Source: an uncultured Lewinella sp. (GTDB lineage: Bacteria; Bacteroidota; Bacteroidia; Chitinophagales; Saprospiraceae). From it: a stretch of 64,000 bases of DNA. This document shows, piece by piece, positions 5,711 to 62,327 of this stretch. Numbering within the stretch: position 1 is the stretch's first letter; each line of letters begins with the position of its first letter. The notes below the pieces were generated by a model. That model was not told where the DNA came from, searched no databases, and saw nothing but the letters and a program-made list of their open reading frames with translations. The translations under genes and the position numbers were made by a program. The DNA is taken from assembly GCA_937873655.1 (NCBI GenBank), contig CALMYQ010000094.1:1-64000 (forward strand). Direction: 5' to 3'.

Positions 5711-6607
5711 CTACTCCCTGATCCTCGGTTTCCTGACCGTAAAAACACGCGAAATATTGAATCCGAAATGGATGCCACCGTCGGCCCAATCCCCCGTCGT
5801 TTCCGTCACAAAGCCTTTTTCGATCATAGAGGTGGCATTGGTGAAATGGAGCTGAAAAACGTGTCCGCCCGTTTCGATATCGAAACCGATCGAGAGCATG
5901 TTCTTGTATTCAGGCGCCAGTTGATCCGGCAGGACATACATGTATTCGGCGTTCAGGGTAATGCGCTTCGACAACTTGATCCGGCCGCCTGCGCCCAGGG
6001 CAAAAACGTCATTTTTTTCGGCTTTTGTGGCCACAAGGTTGCGGTGCACCACCGTCGGGGAAAGCTGAAGGCTGAAACTTTCACTGAATTTCCTGCCGAT
6101 GATCAGCTGGCCGGTATAATACAACCGGGAATAGAAGTAATTCTCCCGGTCCGGGTCGGCCCACTTGATGGATTTCAGCGCGGTGCTGGCAAAAAGAATG
6201 GCGGAAACCGGCATTTTCCTTTTGCCCGTTGATTGCCGCAGGAACTTGTATTTGGCAAAACCGTCAAAAGTCTTCTCATAGCTGTTACGGCCGCCGCCGA
6301 TGGTGAGCCGGTTTGTCAGGCCGTAGTCGGCGCCGATCCGGATGGTGGCGGCATCCAGTCCGAAAAACTCGTAAGGCCCGCCGTTGATCATGCCGAACCG
6401 GTGGGAGATTTTAATGTCCAGTACGCCGGCGGCCGTACTTTCCAATGAGTGGAGGTTGATCACCCGGTCTGTTTTGAAACTGGCGGTCACATATTCGGTT
6501 CCTTCCTCTTCTTCCAATAAGGACAGCAGGTCGTCCTCCTGGGAAAAAGCGGCCGTTGAAATAAGCAGGCAGCAGGCTGCCCAAAAGAAGTAAAGGTTCG
6601 CTTTCAT
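5711..6607 (-). CDS. DUF5777 family beta-barrel protein
   Basis: This 298-residue protein has a signal peptide (residues 1-23, ending AAFSQ), then a short acidic stretch, then alternating polar/hydrophobic strands to the C-terminus. Segments such as TDRVINLHSLE, ISHRFGMINGG, FFGLDAATIRIG and FDGFAKYKFL match the DUF5777 family of predicted outer-membrane beta-barrels in Bacteroidota. No function is established. The start at 6607 follows an AGGA sequence; an earlier in-frame start would add eight residues before the signal peptide. It ends the minus-strand block with YceI, OB-fold and haem lipoproteins, separated from YceI by a 169-bp spacer with two hairpins. A barrel could anchor or export parts of that system. 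Confidence 0.82.
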   Translation of the reverse strand: MKANLYFFWAACCLLISTAAFSQEDDLLSLLEEEEGTEYVTASFKTDRVINLHSLESTAAGVLDIKISHRFGMINGGPYEFFGLDAATIRIGADYGLTNRLTIGGGRNSYEKTFDGFAKYKFLRQSTGKRKMPVSAILFASTALKSIKWADPDRENYFYSRLYYTGQLIIGRKFSESFSLQLSPTVVHRNLVATKAEKNDVFALGAGGRIKLSKRITLNAEYMYVLPDQLAPEYKNMLSIGFDIETGGHVFQLHFTNATSMIEKGFVTETTGDWADGGIHFGFNISRVFTVRKPRIRE

Positions 6608-6631
6608 GGATAATCCTTTTAATAATTGCAC

Positions 6632-6776
6632 GGAAACTCAACACAACCGGGCCTTAATAAAGGCGGCCAAGTCTAGCCCGACTCGGCCGCCCAAAGCCTC
6701 GAAAAGCCCTAGATGCGTACTTCATCCGGACTGCTCCGGGTTGGGAACGCATAAAAGGGGGAATAACAAACTAGCT
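6632..6776 (-). other. Structured spacer between YceI and DUF5777 genes
   Basis: Two inverted repeats lie here: GGCGGCC at 6662-6668 with GGCCGCC at 6685-6691, and ATGCGT at 6713-6718 with ACGCAT at 6747-6752, the latter enclosing a CCGG/CCGG pair. Neither is followed by a clear T-run on the minus strand. They may attenuate or separate expression of the downstream barrel gene, or stabilise transcript ends. Confidence 0.4.
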
Positions 6777-7334
6777 TCAGCTCTTCAATTCCTGGTATTG
6801 GACATCGACCGATACCTTGACGGTTTTAGCGATGTTGTCCTTGACCAGTGCAGGAATTTCTACTTTGTGATCAGCGAGCGCAACGTCAAAGGTGGATACG
6901 GCAGAGATCACACCGCCTGCAACCTTGAACACCCCGTCTGTTTCAACCTGCTTGGTGACGCCGTGGATGGTCAGGTCGCCCTTCACCTTTACCGCGTATT
7001 CACCGTCTTTTTTCAGGTTTACTTTATTGGCAAAGTCCACGATCTCGCCTTTGAAGACAGCCTTGGGGTACTTGCTGCTCTCCAGATAATTTTCGTTGAA
7101 GTGTTCCTGCATCAAAGCTTTTTCAAACTGAAAGGCCTTGATGAGGACAGCGAATTCCATTTTACCTGTTTCAGCGTCAAGCACGCTGGTCGCTTTCTGG
7201 TTATGGGCTTCAATCTTTTCCATGGAAGCTTCGGAAAAGAAAGAGATCTTGCCTTCGCGGGTAAAGTACTTCTGAGCAAAGAGAGAGGCGGAGGCCAGCA
7301 AGCAAAAACAAGCAAGAACTGATAATTTTTTCAT
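6777..7334 (-). CDS. YceI family periplasmic protein
   Basis: This 185-residue protein has a signal peptide (ending LFAQ) and the YceI lipocalin-like fold: HFNENYLESSKYPKAVFKG, a GDLTIHGVTK segment and C-terminal strands. YceI proteins bind long isoprenoid chains such as polyprenyl quinones in the periplasm, so a lipid or quinone carrier role is the natural guess. The ATG at 7334 is used; a TTG two codons upstream is less likely. A second YceI paralogue lies 5.4 kb upstream in the same block (12750-13316), with a near-identical HFNENY core. The OB-fold gene lies 67 bp upstream. Confidence 0.92.
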   Translation of the reverse strand: MKKLSVLACFCLLASASLFAQKYFTREGKISFFSEASMEKIEAHNQKATSVLDAETGKMEFAVLIKAFQFEKALMQEHFNENYLESSKYPKAVFKGEIVDFANKVNLKKDGEYAVKVKGDLTIHGVTKQVETDGVFKVAGGVISAVSTFDVALADHKVEIPALVKDNIAKTVKVSVDVQYQELKS

Positions 7335-7401
7335 TTTCAAAATTGGTTTATAAGATTAATGTTTGTCTGAGTATGCGCGTCAATACGGTTCTAACCGGCC
7401 G

Positions 7402-7812
7402 TCAAACTTCCACACAACGAACGAGCACCACGTCCATCAGCATTCCGGTGCAGATCCCCTTGAAGGTGACCTTTTCACCGGCCTGAAATTCCGTTCGCTT
7501 ATGGGTTGTCAATTCGTCAAGCTGGCAAATCACGCCTGCCAGTTCATCATCCGTTGCCAGGGTAACGCTGATGATTCCGTCGTCCTCTTTTGAGACGGAC
7601 CGCACCACGCCGGTCACTTCTATGACCTTGTCCAGGTACTTGGTGTTGGCGCCGGCTTCGTCCGTTTCAAAATCGGAAAACAGGGCCGCCGATTCCATTT
7701 TGAAATCAGCCGCGGCCCGGTTCATGTTCTTATGAGGTTTGTTCCACAGGTAAATTCCCGTAACAGCGCCGATCAGGGCTAATGAGGCAATGGCAATCCA
7801 GATTTTTTTCAT
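7402..7812 (-). CDS. tRNA_anti-like OB-fold protein, envelope
   Basis: This 136-residue protein has one N-terminal membrane segment or signal (residues 4-24). It then has a domain with KYLDKVIEVTGVVRSV, an ISVTLATDDELAGVICQLD strand pair and GEKVTFKGICTGMLMDVVL. This pattern fits the OB-fold tRNA_anti-like family of Bacteroidota, whose members are found next to YceI and c-type cytochrome genes. Despite the family name, an export signal argues against tRNA binding. It lies 21 bp after the haem lipoprotein gene, so co-transcription is likely. The ligand is unknown. Confidence 0.78.
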   Translation of the reverse strand: MKKIWIAIASLALIGAVTGIYLWNKPHKNMNRAAADFKMESAALFSDFETDEAGANTKYLDKVIEVTGVVRSVSKEDDGIISVTLATDDELAGVICQLDELTTHKRTEFQAGEKVTFKGICTGMLMDVVLVRCVEV

Positions 7813-7833
7813 GGCTTCCTGTTTTAAGCGTTA

Positions 7834-8208
7834 CTAATTATTGGGCGCGCCGGCCTGGACCCACGCCTCGATCTTGGCGATGTTGCAATCCCCGAGTTTG
7901 GGCTGTCCCTGAGGCATTTGCTGGAACCCCGGCGCGTGGTTGATGACGCCAACCAGCTTTTGGTTGTCGACATAAAACTTCAGATTGTCGTAACCTTCCA
8001 AAACGACATTACCCTGCTTGGCCGACTGGCTGTGGCAGATATAGCAATTGTTTTGGATGATCGGGAGCACGGTACCCTGGTAGGTCGCTCCATCCGTCAC
8101 ACAACTGTTTTGAGGATAGAGCTCTTCTTCAACGTCGTAATAACAGGAAGTAATGCCCGCAAGGGAAAAAGAAATCAAAAAGAAGATCAGTTTTTTCGTA
8201 CGATCCAT
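7834..8208 (-). CDS. Small haem-motif (CxxCH) lipoprotein
   Basis: This 124-residue protein has a lipoprotein signal ending in GITSC (C22). It has a single c-type haem motif, CYICH, inside VLPIIQNNCYICHSQ, and a GFQQMPQGQPKLGDC segment with a possible Met ligand. It ends IEAWVQAGAPNN, almost the same as the end of the next upstream protein, so the two share a homologous module. I infer an outer-membrane or periplasmic electron carrier; haem binding has not been shown. It lies 29 bp after its upstream paralogue and 21 bp before the OB-fold gene. Confidence 0.8.
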   Translation of the reverse strand: MDRTKKLIFFLISFSLAGITSCYYDVEEELYPQNSCVTDGATYQGTVLPIIQNNCYICHSQSAKQGNVVLEGYDNLKFYVDNQKLVGVINHAPGFQQMPQGQPKLGDCNIAKIEAWVQAGAPNN

Positions 8209-8237
8209 TTTAAATTGGTTGACTTTTCGAGTTACTT

Positions 8238-9023
8238 TTAATTATTTGGCGCGCCTGCATCCACCCAGGCCTTGATCTGGTTGATCGCGCAATCCGGGAT
8301 TTTCGCGGCGCTTCCGTAGGGCATAGCTGTAAACCCCTGTTGCCATTGAATGGCGCCGACCAGGCGATTATTGTCCACGGCTTTCTTTACGCCGCTGTAA
8401 ACGGTAAAATCATAGCCGCCCGAAGGCAGCGGACCGCTATGGCAGGTGATGCAATGGGTCTGCAGGATCGGCGCGATATGGCCCGAGAAACTGCGATTGT
8501 CTGTTGCGCAACCGTTGCCGCCGCCTGAATTTCCTTCCTCGCAAGTCAGGTCTTTGGCGCCCTGCTGGATCCATTTCGCGATCAGTTCAATCTGATTGGC
8601 TGCCAGCGGTTGCCGGGGCGTTTGCGGCATTCTGTCTTCCACGTCGTCATCAACGAGGACTTTGTAGAGCTTGCTTTCGGAGAGGTCCCCCGGTTCCACA
8701 TCGGCTGTTGACATGACTTTTGCGTAGCTGGACAGCACAACGCCATCCTGAGCCGACTGGTCATCGTGGCAGCCGCTGAGCGCGCAGTTGGATTGAAGGA
8801 TCGGCAGTACCTGGGTTTGGAAATATACCAGATTGGGGTCACAGGGCGTATTGGAGCTGGTGTCGGCGGGATTGCCCGTACCGGTCGTATCGATCGGATT
8901 GCCGGTGGTATCAACCGGTGTTATTTCACCGTCGCTCATTGGGCCGAATGGTTCGTGTTTGCATGAAATCAGCAAAACGGAAACAACTAAGCAGATAAAT
9001 AATGTCGCTAAAATTTTGTCCAT
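8238..9023 (-). CDS. Di-haem-motif lipoprotein
   Basis: This 261-residue lipoprotein (lipobox ending LLISC, C21) has a short Thr/Asp/Gly-rich linker with repeated DTTG units and then two haem-type modules. The first has CALSGCHD, a CX4CH spacing typical of planctomycete-type cytochrome domains. The second has CITCHS, the normal CX2CH. Each module carries a possible Met ligand (RMPQTP; AMPYGS). The end IKAWVDAGAPNN repeats in the next gene downstream. I placed the start at ATG 9023; an upstream extension would put 19 charged residues before the signal. I infer an envelope electron-transfer role. The gene begins 111 bp after the LytTR regulator gene ends. Confidence 0.8.
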   Translation of the reverse strand: MDKILATLFICLVVSVLLISCKHEPFGPMSDGEITPVDTTGNPIDTTGTGNPADTSSNTPCDPNLVYFQTQVLPILQSNCALSGCHDDQSAQDGVVLSSYAKVMSTADVEPGDLSESKLYKVLVDDDVEDRMPQTPRQPLAANQIELIAKWIQQGAKDLTCEEGNSGGGNGCATDNRSFSGHIAPILQTHCITCHSGPLPSGGYDFTVYSGVKKAVDNNRLVGAIQWQQGFTAMPYGSAAKIPDCAINQIKAWVDAGAPNN

Positions 9024-9133
9024 GATCTCAGGGCGTTTCGGGCGCTTGAATTCGAGGCCAAAAATATCTCCCAGGATCAAAGGATCAAAAATTAACTTGC
9101 CGAACGGGAAAAAAAGCCCCCCGAACGGGAAAA

Positions 9134-9895
9134 TCAGGAGTTTTCCAGTTCACCCTGAAGCCATTTTTTGAAATGTGGCGACCGTTCGGTGCTGACAATC
9201 GTCTCCAGGTCGCACGGAGGTTGCAGCTCCAGCTTTACCCTGGATTTTGAATAAGCGTACATTTCTCTTATGGCCTGGACGTGAATGATGAACTGCCGGT
9301 TGATCCGGAAGAATTTTTCGGGATCCAGGAATTCTTCCAGTTTTTCCAGCGATTGGTCCAGCGGATACCGTTTCCCTTCCCAGGTAATGACGAACGTGAT
9401 CTTTTCTTCGGTATAAAAGTAAGCGGCCTCCGACAGGTCGATGATCTTGATGTGCTGGCCGACCCGGATCAAAAACCGTTTCGACGGGGCGTCTTTTTGA
9501 ATAATGGCGGCCAGTTTTTTATAATCGATGGCCGATTTTTCAGCCAGCTGCCGGTATTTGTCAAGCGCCTGTTCGAGCTCCTGGCGCTTGATGGGTTTGA
9601 GCAGGTAGTCTATGGCGTTTACCCTGAATGCCTGGATCGCATACTGGTCGTAGGCCGTAGTAAAAATGATTGGTTTATCGATCTTCAGGTGCTCGAAGAT
9701 CTCGAAACAGGACCCGTCTGCCAGGTGGATATCCATAAAGAGCAGGTCCGGTAATGGGTTTTTGTCAGCGAAGTTGAGTGCGGCTTCAATGCTGTCCAGT
9801 CTGGCTGCAATCTCCAGGGTATTGTCAATCTCGCAGAGTATCTTTTCCAGTCGTCTGGCAGCGGTGATCTCGTCCTCGACGATCCAAACTTTCAT
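9134..9895 (-). CDS. LytTR family response regulator
   Basis: This 253-residue cytoplasmic regulator has a receiver domain (1-120) with acidic residues E7/D8/E9, phospho-acceptor D55 in LLFMDIHLADG, the TT of IIFTTAYD and K in YLLKPIKR. It also has a C-terminal LytTR DNA-binding domain (about 150-250) with FFRINRQFIIHV. Its start overlaps the stop of the propeller histidine kinase by 4 bp (ATGA), which indicates translational coupling and a cognate pair. Likely targets are the adjacent haem-lipoprotein/YceI genes, but no binding repeat was identified. Confidence 0.94.
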   Translation of the reverse strand: MKVWIVEDEITAARRLEKILCEIDNTLEIAARLDSIEAALNFADKNPLPDLLFMDIHLADGSCFEIFEHLKIDKPIIFTTAYDQYAIQAFRVNAIDYLLKPIKRQELEQALDKYRQLAEKSAIDYKKLAAIIQKDAPSKRFLIRVGQHIKIIDLSEAAYFYTEEKITFVITWEGKRYPLDQSLEKLEEFLDPEKFFRINRQFIIHVQAIREMYAYSKSRVKLELQPPCDLETIVSTERSPHFKKWLQGELENS

Positions 9896-12753
9896 GCGGG
9901 TTCTTTTTTGATTAAGGGAATAAAAACCTTAAAGCTGTCGGCCGATTCCTCTACCCTGATATTCTTCTGACTCAGGTGCTCGTATCGCTTGGCGATGCTT
10001 TGCAGGCCAAATCCGGTAGATTTTTCGGGCGACAGTTTTTTCTGCAGGTTGTTGCAAACGACGATATAGCCTTGATCGTCCGGATAGATCCGGATCTTTA
10101 AAGGTCTCGATTTGCTGATCACATTGTGCTTTACCGCATTTTCTACCAGCATTTGCAGGGCCAGCGGCGCGATGCAGGCTTCCTGCGGAATCTCTTCGGT
10201 TTTAAGTTGCAATCCGTCTCCAAACCGTTTTTCCAACAAGAATCCGTAGTCCATGACCAGGCCCAGCTCTTCCTGGAGGTCGATCAGGTCCTTTTCGCGG
10301 TATTGAAGAATATGCCGGTAGAAATCCGACAGTTTTTCAACGTATTCAACGGCCAGCTCAGGCGATTCCTCGATTATGGCTACAAGGGTATTGAAGTTAT
10401 TGAACAGAAAATGCGGATTGATCTGGCTCTTCAACGTCTCGTACTGGCTTTCCACCTTTTCTTTTTTGAGGGCTTCCACGCGCTGCAATCTCTTTTCCCT
10501 GATCTGAATGATATAATATACCAACAAGACGCCCAACAGGACGGAAGCGCCGATAAACCAGTTTTTTTTCCAATAGGGTGTCCGGATCAGAAAGCTGTAG
10601 GTTGCAATGGGCTCCGACTGAAACTTTCCATTCTCAGACGCTGAGATCACAAACCTGTAGTCGCCGGGCGGCAGATTGGAATAGACGACCCTTCTGTCCG
10701 AGGATATGATCCACTCGCGGTCGAACCCCTCCAGCTTATAGCGGAATTTCACCGTTTCCGGATCGGTCAGCCATATGCCGGAATAGTCGATGGCCAGGCC
10801 GTTCCGGTCATGCGGAAAGCTGTTGACCCGGTTGAAATCGATGGGCTCCAGGAACACGGATACGCGATCGATCATGATCCTGGGGTGTATGCTCAGCGCT
10901 TCCTTGAGCGGATTGAAGCCGATCACCCCTTCCTTTGCGCCGATCCAGACCCGACCCTCCTTGTCGGCGTACATGGCATTCAGGTTGGGTTCAAAATCCG
11001 TCAGGCCGACTTCCCGGTCGTAATAAATGAAGTGCTTCAGCTCCGGGTCGAGCAGGTCGATGCCGTTGGGATGGATAACCAGCACCTGGCCTTTGCCGTC
11101 GGTGGCCAGGCCGTTGATGGTCAGGCTCCGAAGGCCTTCCTGCAGGCCGAAATGGTCAAAAACAGAACCGTCAAAGGAAAACAGGCCTTCTTTGGCCGTA
11201 CTGAACCAGATCCTGCCGCTTTCATCTTCCGTAACGGCATAAACCGATTTGAATGCTTGCGCCCCTGTACTGTCGTAGTTGGCTATTCGCCCCTTGTCCA
11301 TCATCACCAATCCCTTCCCGTCGGTACCGAACCATTTCCGGCCTTTCGAATCGCAATAGACCTTGAACACGAAATTGGCGCCGAGGTCTTCCTCTTTCTT
11401 GAAGACGATCCGGTCGCCGAACGGATTCGTGCCGGCCTTTATGCTGGAGACGCCCCCCAGGGTAGCCAGCCACAATTTGTCGCCGTCGTCCGCAATGGAC
11501 AGGATGCTCCCGTTGGAAAGTCCGTCCGATTCCGTAAAAATCCGGGTTGCGCCGGTTGATTTTTGATAGGCGTACAAGCCTTCGCCGAAACAGCCGATCC
11601 ACAATACACCGCTGTCGTTGTCGTGCAAGCTGATCACATTGATCCCTGGGATGACTTCGCGAAAGGATTTGCCGCCGTCCGCCTGGGTTTCATACTTGTA
11701 CAATCCGGTTTGAGCGCCTACCCAGAGTTGATGGTCTTTGTCGTAAAGGACCGCCTGGATGTCTTTCAGGCCATCGTGCAGGAATTCGAACTGCCGGTTG
11801 GCCGAAGCCAGCGGAGCCTCGTTGGAGGCCACCCAGACATTGCCTTCCACATCCTTGAGCAGGTCCTGGATCCTGGCCTTACCGAACCGGAAGGATTCAA
11901 CCGCTGAATACCGTTTTTCATCAAAGTTATACCGCCATATGCCATTTCCTTGCGTCCCTATCCACAGTTCCAATCCGTCAAAAATCAGGAGGTTATTGAT
12001 CACGCCGTTTTTCCAGGCCGTTTCCGGTTTTTGGACCGAAAAGTCCTTCAGGGAAATCCGGCAGATCCCGCCGTCAAAGCCGCCTGCCCAGATATGCCCG
12101 TCATCGGCAGGCAGAATGGCCTTGATGATATCATCCGGCAGGCCATCGGCCTTGGTCAGGTTTTTTATCTGTTTGCGGCCTCCTTCCATCCAGCAAATGC
12201 TCAAACCGCTGTCGCTGCCGATCAGCATCCTGCCATCCGGGCCGGCCACCAGGGTGTAAATGTCTTCCGCAGGCAGGCCGTCGTCCATATTAAAATTATA
12301 CATCCGGGTCCCGTCGTAAAAATAGACGCCTTCCCCATAGGTGCCGAACCAAAGCCGTCCCTTTTCGTCCTCGCCGAATCCGGTTATCGGAACATCGGGC
12401 AATCCTTCTTCCGGAGACCATACGCGCAGGCTGTCATCTCCATGCATATGCACGATGGTCCCTGACTGGTAGCCCACCCAGAGGGTGCCGAGGCGGTCGG
12501 CGTAAATGGCCGACACCTCCAGCGGATTGGGGTTTCCCGCTACCCTGAACGGTTTGAAATCCAGCCCGTCAAACCGCAACAAGCCCTGGTCGGTACCGAT
12601 CCATACAAAACCGCCCGACGCCTCATAGATGGTACTGACCTCGGCATCCGTCCAGTCTTCCGGCAACTTATGGTACCTGAAATACGGCTGTTGCCCGGAT
12701 AACGGTCCGAGACACCATAAAACCAGGCCTGTCCAGAACATTATTTTTTTCAC
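9892..12753 (-). CDS. Propeller-sensor histidine kinase (LytS type)
   Basis: This 953-residue sensor has a signal peptide (1-20). About 14 two-component propeller repeats of the form DxxGxxWxGTxxGLxxxDG follow, enough for two seven-bladed propellers, up to about residue 640. It then has a Y_Y_Y domain (about 655-735), one membrane helix (about 745-765), and a LytS-type kinase module with the phospho-His segment QINPHFLFNNFNTL and the ATPase N-box LQMLVENAVKHN. The sensory part is therefore periplasmic. The start is GTG at 12753, overlapping the YceI stop by 4 bp (GTGA); an ATG four codons later is the alternative. It overlaps the LytTR gene downstream. The ligand is unknown. Confidence 0.92.
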   Translation of the reverse strand: MKKIMFWTGLVLWCLGPLSGQQPYFRYHKLPEDWTDAEVSTIYEASGGFVWIGTDQGLLRFDGLDFKPFRVAGNPNPLEVSAIYADRLGTLWVGYQSGTIVHMHGDDSLRVWSPEEGLPDVPITGFGEDEKGRLWFGTYGEGVYFYDGTRMYNFNMDDGLPAEDIYTLVAGPDGRMLIGSDSGLSICWMEGGRKQIKNLTKADGLPDDIIKAILPADDGHIWAGGFDGGICRISLKDFSVQKPETAWKNGVINNLLIFDGLELWIGTQGNGIWRYNFDEKRYSAVESFRFGKARIQDLLKDVEGNVWVASNEAPLASANRQFEFLHDGLKDIQAVLYDKDHQLWVGAQTGLYKYETQADGGKSFREVIPGINVISLHDNDSGVLWIGCFGEGLYAYQKSTGATRIFTESDGLSNGSILSIADDGDKLWLATLGGVSSIKAGTNPFGDRIVFKKEEDLGANFVFKVYCDSKGRKWFGTDGKGLVMMDKGRIANYDSTGAQAFKSVYAVTEDESGRIWFSTAKEGLFSFDGSVFDHFGLQEGLRSLTINGLATDGKGQVLVIHPNGIDLLDPELKHFIYYDREVGLTDFEPNLNAMYADKEGRVWIGAKEGVIGFNPLKEALSIHPRIMIDRVSVFLEPIDFNRVNSFPHDRNGLAIDYSGIWLTDPETVKFRYKLEGFDREWIISSDRRVVYSNLPPGDYRFVISASENGKFQSEPIATYSFLIRTPYWKKNWFIGASVLLGVLLVYYIIQIREKRLQRVEALKKEKVESQYETLKSQINPHFLFNNFNTLVAIIEESPELAVEYVEKLSDFYRHILQYREKDLIDLQEELGLVMDYGFLLEKRFGDGLQLKTEEIPQEACIAPLALQMLVENAVKHNVISKSRPLKIRIYPDDQGYIVVCNNLQKKLSPEKSTGFGLQSIAKRYEHLSQKNIRVEESADSFKVFIPLIKKEPA

Positions 12754-13316
12754 CCTTCCTGCACAGTTAAGGTGGCAACCAATTCAACGGAGATCTCTTC
12801 GGCGATTTTCTGGTATACGATTTTCGGGATGGCAATCCCATGTTCCTCCAGCAGAACGGTGAAAGCGGCCGTCAGGGTCACCTTGCCGCCTTCTACTTTA
12901 ACGGCGCCTTTGATGATCCGTTCCTTTTCAATTCCGTGGACATTGAGCTTTCCTTTTGCCCTGACCTGGTAGGTGCCGTCTTTGGTAAAATCCACATCTT
13001 CAATGAATTTGCCGGAAAAGGTCGCACGCGGGAATTTTTTGCTTTCCATGTAGTTCTCGTTGAAATGCTCTCTTTGCAAGGGACTGTTAAACCCTTGAAA
13101 AGACTGGATATTTACCGAAAAGGCAAACCCGTTTCTGCCGGGGTCGATTACCCCTTTGAGCTCATTGGAAGCCGCTTCGATCAATTCCAGGGGAGCATCC
13201 GATTTGAAGGAGATCTTTCCGGTTTCCGTCATCAGCCGGGGTTGCCCGCTCAGGACTCCGGTACCCATAGTGAAAAAACACGCAATTAGGAAAAGCCGAA
13301 CTTTCATTGGAAACAT
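12750..13316 (-). CDS. YceI family protein, second copy
   Basis: This 188-residue protein has a signal peptide (ending LSGQ) and YceI features: HFNENYMESKKFPRATFSG and GKLNVHGIEK. It is a diverged paralogue of the YceI at 6777-7334. It may start at ATG 13316 or three codons later at 13307; neither has a Shine-Dalgarno sequence. Its stop overlaps the kinase start, so it appears to be first in a YceI/kinase/regulator operon. It could present an isoprenoid or quinone-type ligand to the sensor, but that is only inference from context. Confidence 0.9.
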   Translation of the reverse strand: MFPMKVRLFLIACFFTMGTGVLSGQPRLMTETGKISFKSDAPLELIEAASNELKGVIDPGRNGFAFSVNIQSFQGFNSPLQREHFNENYMESKKFPRATFSGKFIEDVDFTKDGTYQVRAKGKLNVHGIEKERIIKGAVKVEGGKVTLTAAFTVLLEEHGIAIPKIVYQKIAEEISVELVATLTVQEG

Positions 13317-13422
13317 AAAATTTTCATTAAGGTAGGCAAATGGGTAAAAAAGGGAGTATCATTCTTGCTGAACGGGCATAAATTCCGGCTGAACAGGTAA
13401 AATGACCGGTTTGCCTGGTCAA

Positions 13423-62222: not shown

Positions 62223-62327
62223 GATTTTATACCGAAGGGTGGAGAGAAAGGGCTCTGTGAAACCCTGGCAACCTGGATGGCTTTCCAAGGTGCCAAGTCC
62301 CGCCGGAAGAACCGGAAATATAAAATC
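62223..62327 (+). promoter_or_regulatory. SAM-I (S-box) riboswitch upstream of metX
   Basis: Helix P1 is a perfect 9-bp pairing of 62223-62231 with 62319-62327. The core has the S-box consensus pieces GGTGGAG, GTGAAACC, GGCAACC and GGTGCCAA in the right order, and a CCGG/CCGG stem as P4. SAM binding should favour P1. No terminator hairpin separates it from metX, and P1 ends 12 nt before the ATG, so regulation of translation start is the likely mode. The aptamer family is well known; this mode is inferred. Confidence 0.88.

Follow-up and report, generated by a model that had tools for sequence, protein, structure and literature searches.

Eight genes that lie together on the minus strand of a 64,000-nucleotide stretch of DNA from an uncultured Lewinella sp. 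(the window) encode two YceI proteins, a propeller histidine kinase, a LytTR regulator, two haem-motif lipoproteins, an OB-fold protein and a DUF5777 barrel. This raises the question whether they form an envelope electron-transfer unit with its own two-component control, as proposed in an original prediction made from the sequence, and what such a system would do for the cell.

Gene content and order of the locus

All eight predicted genes were found in place on the minus strand, and their family names were confirmed by Pfam. Read from 13316 to 5711, the order is YceI_A, kinase, LytTR, cytL, cytS, OB, YceI_B and DUF5777 barrel. The features of the locus are:

13368..13397, minus strand: candidate LytTR operator 1, CCTGTTCAG-N12-CCCGTTCAG, about 52 bases before YceI_A, 1 mismatch
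12750..13316, minus strand: YceI_A, secreted YceI of a sensor-linked subfamily (Pfam YceI 42.6 bits, cut-off 23.7)
9892..12753, minus strand: membrane sensor histidine kinase with Reg_prop propeller, Y_Y_Y, one TM, LytS-type His_kinase and NPHFLFN
9134..9895, minus strand: LytTR response regulator (Pfam Response_reg and LytTR)
9100..9129, minus strand: candidate LytTR operator 2, CCCGTTCGG-N12-CCCGTTCGG, about 77 bases before cytL
8238..9023 (ORF listed as 8238-9080), minus strand: cytL, lipoprotein carrying CALSGCH and CITCH as its two c-type haem motifs (PSCyt1 34.2 bits, Cytochrome_CBB3 27.8 bits)
7834..8208, minus strand: cytS, short lipoprotein with a single haem motif (CXXCH) and CYYDVEEELYP as tether (assigned by motif and similarity to cytL)
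7402..7812, minus strand: OB-fold protein, membrane-anchored, periplasmic, tRNA_anti-like PF12869 (Pfam 85 bits)
6777..7334, minus strand: YceI_B, effector YceI (Pfam YceI 59.8 bits, cut-off 23.7)
6655..6705, minus strand: hairpin followed by a T-rich run, in the gap from YceI_B to the barrel gene (-27.5 kcal/mol, z -4.2)
5711..6607, minus strand: DUF5777 (PF19089), predicted outer-membrane beta barrel with signal peptide (Pfam 316.6 bits, cut-off 23.1)

The likely starts of cytL, YceI_B and the barrel are internal ATG codons at 9023, 7334 and 6607, respectively. The source genome comprises 8.07 Mb in 282 contigs and carries three DUF5777 genes. Elsewhere in the window, a SAM riboswitch is located at 62224-62326 (Rfam RF00162, 81.7 bits).

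Gene order was compared among 80 named Bacteroidota loci that were collected by barrel similarity and stem mostly from MAGs labelled Saprospiraceae, Chitinophagales and Flavobacteriales. The exact order YceI-kinase-LytTR-cyt-cyt-OB-YceI-barrel was found in 11 of them, and one further named locus shows the same order with an extra regulator behind it; others among the named loci have shuffled or shortened orders, several of them near-identical. In addition, locus L083 carries the exact octet and L082 the octet with one cytochrome. The order is thus conserved beyond chance, and the original prediction, which named a lack of such conservation as one ground for refutation, withstood the comparison.

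The control genes (YceI-kinase-LytTR) were present in 15 and absent in 39 of the 54 loci with enough upstream sequence. An orthologous kinase is encoded in nine relatives, all of which also encode the barrel; YceI lies directly upstream of the kinase in eight of the nine, and the kinase lies away from the barrel in seven. In the window, the effector genes follow downstream of LytTR with short gaps between them. Judged by gene order, the locus is made up of two separable cassettes, a control cassette (YceI-kinase-LytTR) and an effector cassette (cytochrome(s)-[OB]-YceI-barrel). The proposed envelope electron-transfer unit gained support from the Rieske exchange and the His/Met haem signature described below, but the octet is not a single unit, its two cassettes often lying apart. 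We regard the octet as a candidate for a conserved, undescribed cell-envelope redox system with its own sensor; searches of open-licence papers for YceI together with Rieske, and for YceI together with Flavobacterium, cytochrome and barrel, returned nothing on this gene set.

The effector cassette is widespread in Bacteroidota. Of 296 genomes sampled across the phylum, 115 encode DUF5777, as do 36 of 40 near relatives. Among 61 barrel loci, a haem lipoprotein lies within 3 kb on the same strand in 51, a YceI in 43, both in 36 and an OB gene in 16; the kinase was seldom found in these neighbourhoods. A nearby YceI is absent in 18 of the 61 loci, and at the two other barrel loci of the source genome the haem lipoproteins lack an adjoining YceI, showing that barrel and cytochrome do not need YceI in every case. 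No oxidative-stress gene was found as a consistent neighbour at the 61 loci.

Several barrel loci contain further redox proteins. Six loci without nearby YceI (L006-L010 and L029) additionally encode a c-type cytochrome in the vicinity, with a length of up to about 370 residues; a small cytochrome c occurs in L014, L015, L019, L037 and L041, and an ethylbenzene-dehydrogenase-type haem protein is present in L015, L019, L032 and L037. DUF5777 may pair with several redox partners. COX1 was present in all 115 barrel genomes and the barrel in none of the 11 genomes without COX1; a correlation of barrel and haem-copper oxidase was nevertheless rejected as confounded by descent, since eight of the 11 COX1-less genomes belong to one family.

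Control cassette and candidate LytTR operators

The kinase gene overlaps the stop of YceI_A and the start of LytTR by 4 bases each, suggesting translational coupling. The features of a LytTR two-component system are present, with a receiver and a LytTR domain in the regulator and an H-box in the kinase; an NPHFLFN-type H-box was found in 22 of 26 full-length kinases. A relation of the kinase to PorZ of type IX secretion was rejected (NCBIfam PorZ 65.6 bits against a cut-off of 260). In G314 the kinase orthologue at L079 (contig C626) is broken by in-frame stops and a frame change, with the YceI and LytTR frames open, and may be a pseudogene.

In a tree of 151 YceI proteins, all 27 kinase-linked YceI fall into a single clade (support 0.975), which has one extra member, located beside a LytTR gene in L199; the 114 effector-linked YceI fall outside this clade. 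YceI_A thus belongs to a sensor-linked subfamily and is no recent copy of YceI_B.

Each cassette is preceded by a direct repeat of the form CCCGTTCRG-N12-CCCGTTCRG with a 21-base period. LytTR regulators use such an arrangement, and the repeat resembles the AlgR site. Pairs of direct repeats of about 9 bases, as expected for LytTR-type sites, are present before both predicted targets. Operator 2 is the only perfect site in the whole 8.07 Mb genome, and operator 1, with one mismatch, is tied genome-wide with a single site on contig C169. The window contains three matches with up to 3 mismatches, compared to 0.28 expected. The repetition of the site before both cassettes indicates joint regulation.

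The same spacing and a related motif were detected with p < 0.05 in 12 of 23 orthologous regions after LytTR (Fisher 2e-10) and in 8 of 26 regions before YceI_A (Fisher 9e-7), where p was obtained by shuffling and the regions, coming from related genomes, are not independent. That footprints reach this threshold in only these fractions of the regions counts against the regulon. The sharpest comparison is offered by genomes whose cassettes lie apart. Before the effector operon, the site is perfect in G296 and G308 and has one mismatch in G314; when up to 2 mismatches are allowed, the 11.2 Mb genome of G308 has the site in just two places, before the effector operon and before the control cassette. 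No such site precedes the effector operons of G306, G320 and G327, where the motif may have drifted or the link may have been lost. It is likewise missing before the two other barrel operons of the source genome, so that the predicted control is specific to the YceI-bearing operon. Based on these operator-like sites, the locus probably has its own two-component control, as originally proposed, and control of both cassettes by the predicted binding of LytTR is well supported.

Further copies of the repeat were found outside the cassettes. In the source genome, a small lipoprotein gene with no Pfam match (L170, C93:67471-67893) has a site with 2 mismatches; the corresponding sites have 1 mismatch in G296, where the protein is 48% identical, and 3 mismatches in G314, making this lipoprotein a probable third target of the regulator. 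The repeat on C169 (L166, 1420-1449) lies 38 bases before a gene for a TPR outer-membrane protein, which is followed by a family-2 glycosyltransferase, and could be a site of either this or a different LytTR regulator. In G314, an operator-like repeat with 2 mismatches (L220, C737:3307-3336) is followed after 72 bases by the gene for a multihaem cytochrome c; the multihaem cytochrome was rejected as a member of the regulon, the site being present in G314 only and absent before the source-genome orthologue.

Effector proteins and the redox slot

The haem lipoproteins show the features of class I c-type cytochromes, namely CXXCH or CX4CH motifs and a distal Met, mostly with one or two haem motifs per protein. 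One of the two motifs in cytL is of the CX4CH type, and its lipobox reads LISC-KHEP. CytS scores 17.3 bits with Cytochrome_CBB3, which is below the Pfam cut-off of 27, so that it was identified by CXXCH, by the conserved MP ligand motif and by its likeness to cytL. In 198 proteins, 267 CXXCH or CX4CH motifs were counted, and 264 of these have an MP behind them, with a median spacing of 38 residues (32 when the segments were shuffled). This placement is the signature of a distal Met ligand, as in His/Met class I cytochromes, and haem binding is predicted. The tether CYYDxEEELYP follows the lipidated Cys in 48 of 101 short lipoproteins (strict pattern), and a CKHE tether is found in 27 of 41 long haem lipoproteins. 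The acidic CYYDxEEELYP tether could be a surface-export signal.

In several loci the place of the cytochrome is filled by a different redox protein. A small lipoprotein with a Rieske domain occupies it in L033, L038, L044 and L054 (Pfam 27 to 40 bits), and a Rieske lipoprotein was recognised there in L062 by a CxH...CxxH-type motif and in L141 by profile. C-type cytochromes and Rieske proteins share little except one-electron transfer, which argues that the slot is that of an electron carrier, and this exchange is the best sequence evidence for a redox slot. L043 has a Rieske lipoprotein beside YceI and DUF5777 in addition to a haem lipoprotein.

The YceI_B profile matches 11 solved YceI sequences, and the effector YceI adjoins the barrel across the phylum. 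An AlphaFold2 model of the OB protein (pLDDT 94) consists of an N-terminal helix and an OB fold; a fold search, in which a CcmE-type haem chaperone was considered, returned generic OB folds only, with 3f1z as the best PDB match. The AlphaFold2 model of DUF5777, built from 52 sequences, is a 12-stranded barrel (pLDDT 91.5) with KdgM, FapF, NanC and a COG4313 channel as fold neighbours (Z 16-18). The model supports an outer-membrane location and a small channel but points to no substrate. The literature search, covering open-licence papers, found no paper on DUF5777. The hairpin between YceI_B and the barrel gene is a possible terminator or attenuator, and with its T-rich tail it may partly uncouple the barrel from the other effector genes in this genome.

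Proposed function and comparison with known systems

Our working interpretation, in which we place middling confidence, is a regulon of two cassettes in which the kinase controls electron transfer that takes place at the outer membrane and involves a quinone or lipid. The propeller kinase would sense the state of the envelope in the periplasm, perhaps as presented by the secreted YceI_A, and phosphorylate the LytTR regulator, which would then bind both direct repeats, in front of YceI_A and in front of cytL, and switch on the effector cassette together with its own genes, activation being assumed rather than repression. At the outer membrane, cytL and cytS (elsewhere the Rieske lipoprotein) would exchange electrons with a hydrophobic redox compound carried by YceI_B, for which menaquinone or an oxidised lipid is the likeliest candidate. 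The 12-stranded barrel would serve as channel or docking site, and the OB protein as accessory. The system would hold outer-envelope quinone or lipid in the reduced state or clear the oxidised forms; its purpose is probably envelope redox protection. Several findings speak against this reading: the barrel loci that have no YceI nearby, the limited share of regions with an operator footprint, the hairpin in front of the barrel gene and the lack of a recurrent oxidative-stress neighbour. A bolder proposal, which we put forward only tentatively, is that the control cassette represents a two-component system of a new class. Its dedicated secreted YceI would present quinone or oxidised lipid to the propeller, so that the lipid redox state of the outer envelope is read and a lipid-linked electron-transfer complex is adjusted to it.

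Other readings of the same genes were considered. The barrel could be a channel that lets a hydrophobic or aromatic molecule into or out of the cell, with YceI_B as its carrier across the periplasm and the cytochromes accepting electrons from a modifying enzyme. YceI proteins bind long hydrophobic ligands, and the nearest folds are the small 12-stranded channels KdgM, NanC and the COG4313 channel 4rl8, with FadL-type channels further down the list. However, likeness among 12-stranded barrels is unspecific and does not reveal a substrate, and no catabolic enzyme recurs as neighbour at the 61 barrel loci; the presence of DUF5777 in 115 of 296 genomes of the phylum also argues against a special substrate. 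We consider transport of this kind unlikely.

Electrons might instead leave the cell through barrel and cytochromes as in a porin-cytochrome conduit, a role to which the combination of an outer-membrane barrel with haem lipoproteins, the possible surface-export tether and the proposed part of YceJ-YceI in extracellular reduction in Shewanella (PMC8981235) would fit. The operator-like site before the multihaem cytochrome gene of G314 points the same way, but the multihaem gene of the source genome lacks one, the lipoproteins mostly have one or two haems each, and all 115 barrel genomes have a haem-copper oxidase. The MtrAB barrel encloses a multihaem cytochrome, for which 12 strands should be too narrow. 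Such a conduit is, in our view, quite improbable. Even less is to be said for a pure sensing unit, in which both YceI and the cytochromes feed an oxygen or redox signal to the kinase and the barrel is a passenger: the gene for YceI_A overlaps that of the kinase and remains next to it in most relatives, and their cassette has its own operator-like site, but the effector cassette mostly occurs without an adjoining kinase (39 of 54 loci), and we hold this reading to be very improbable indeed.

Kinase-controlled, quinone- or lipid-linked electron transfer would touch a little explored field, since outer-membrane electron transfer and defence against lipid oxidation have received little attention in Bacteroidota. 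YceI function is open in many bacteria, and here YceI is tied to redox chemistry by gene order and by the exchange of cytochrome and Rieske proteins. The defined candidate operator makes signal and regulon directly testable.

Parts of the locus resemble known systems. Its control genes share their domain make-up and the 21-base-period direct-repeat operator with Reg_prop LytS-type kinase/LytTR systems of Bacteroidota, from which they differ by the clade-specific YceI partner gene that precedes the kinase. MtrCAB-type conduits likewise combine an outer-membrane barrel with c-type cytochromes; there a large barrel surrounds a multihaem cytochrome, whereas here the modelled barrel has 12 strands and the lipoproteins have one and two haem motifs. 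In Shewanella YceJ-YceI, YceI acts as a periplasmic electron mediator with cytochrome b561 as its partner (PMC8981235), but neither a barrel nor a dedicated regulator is described there. Cbp2D and Cbp2E of Cellvibrio japonicus also combine YceI (X158) with cytochrome c (X183) domains in electron transfer, and YceI domains were purified with ubiquinone-8, which is present in the crystals (PMC10154616). Unlike the separate lipoproteins and barrel described here, those are secreted fusion proteins linked, together with LPMOs, to the use of cellulose and chitin.

LcoA-BcnA of Burkholderia consists of a cytochrome b561 and a YceI lipocalin and protects from lipid peroxyl radicals (PMC9113575). In both systems YceI is genetically linked to a cytochrome of the envelope that is the proposed redox partner of a bound quinone. 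Both YceI proteins of the locus match Pfam YceI. None of the eight proteins is a cytochrome b561; the place of that inner-membrane cytochrome is taken by c-type haem lipoproteins or a Rieske protein. Further parts are an outer-membrane barrel, an OB protein and a two-component system of its own, which includes a second YceI. With b561 missing and these parts added, the locus appears to represent the YceI-redox principle in a new variant form.
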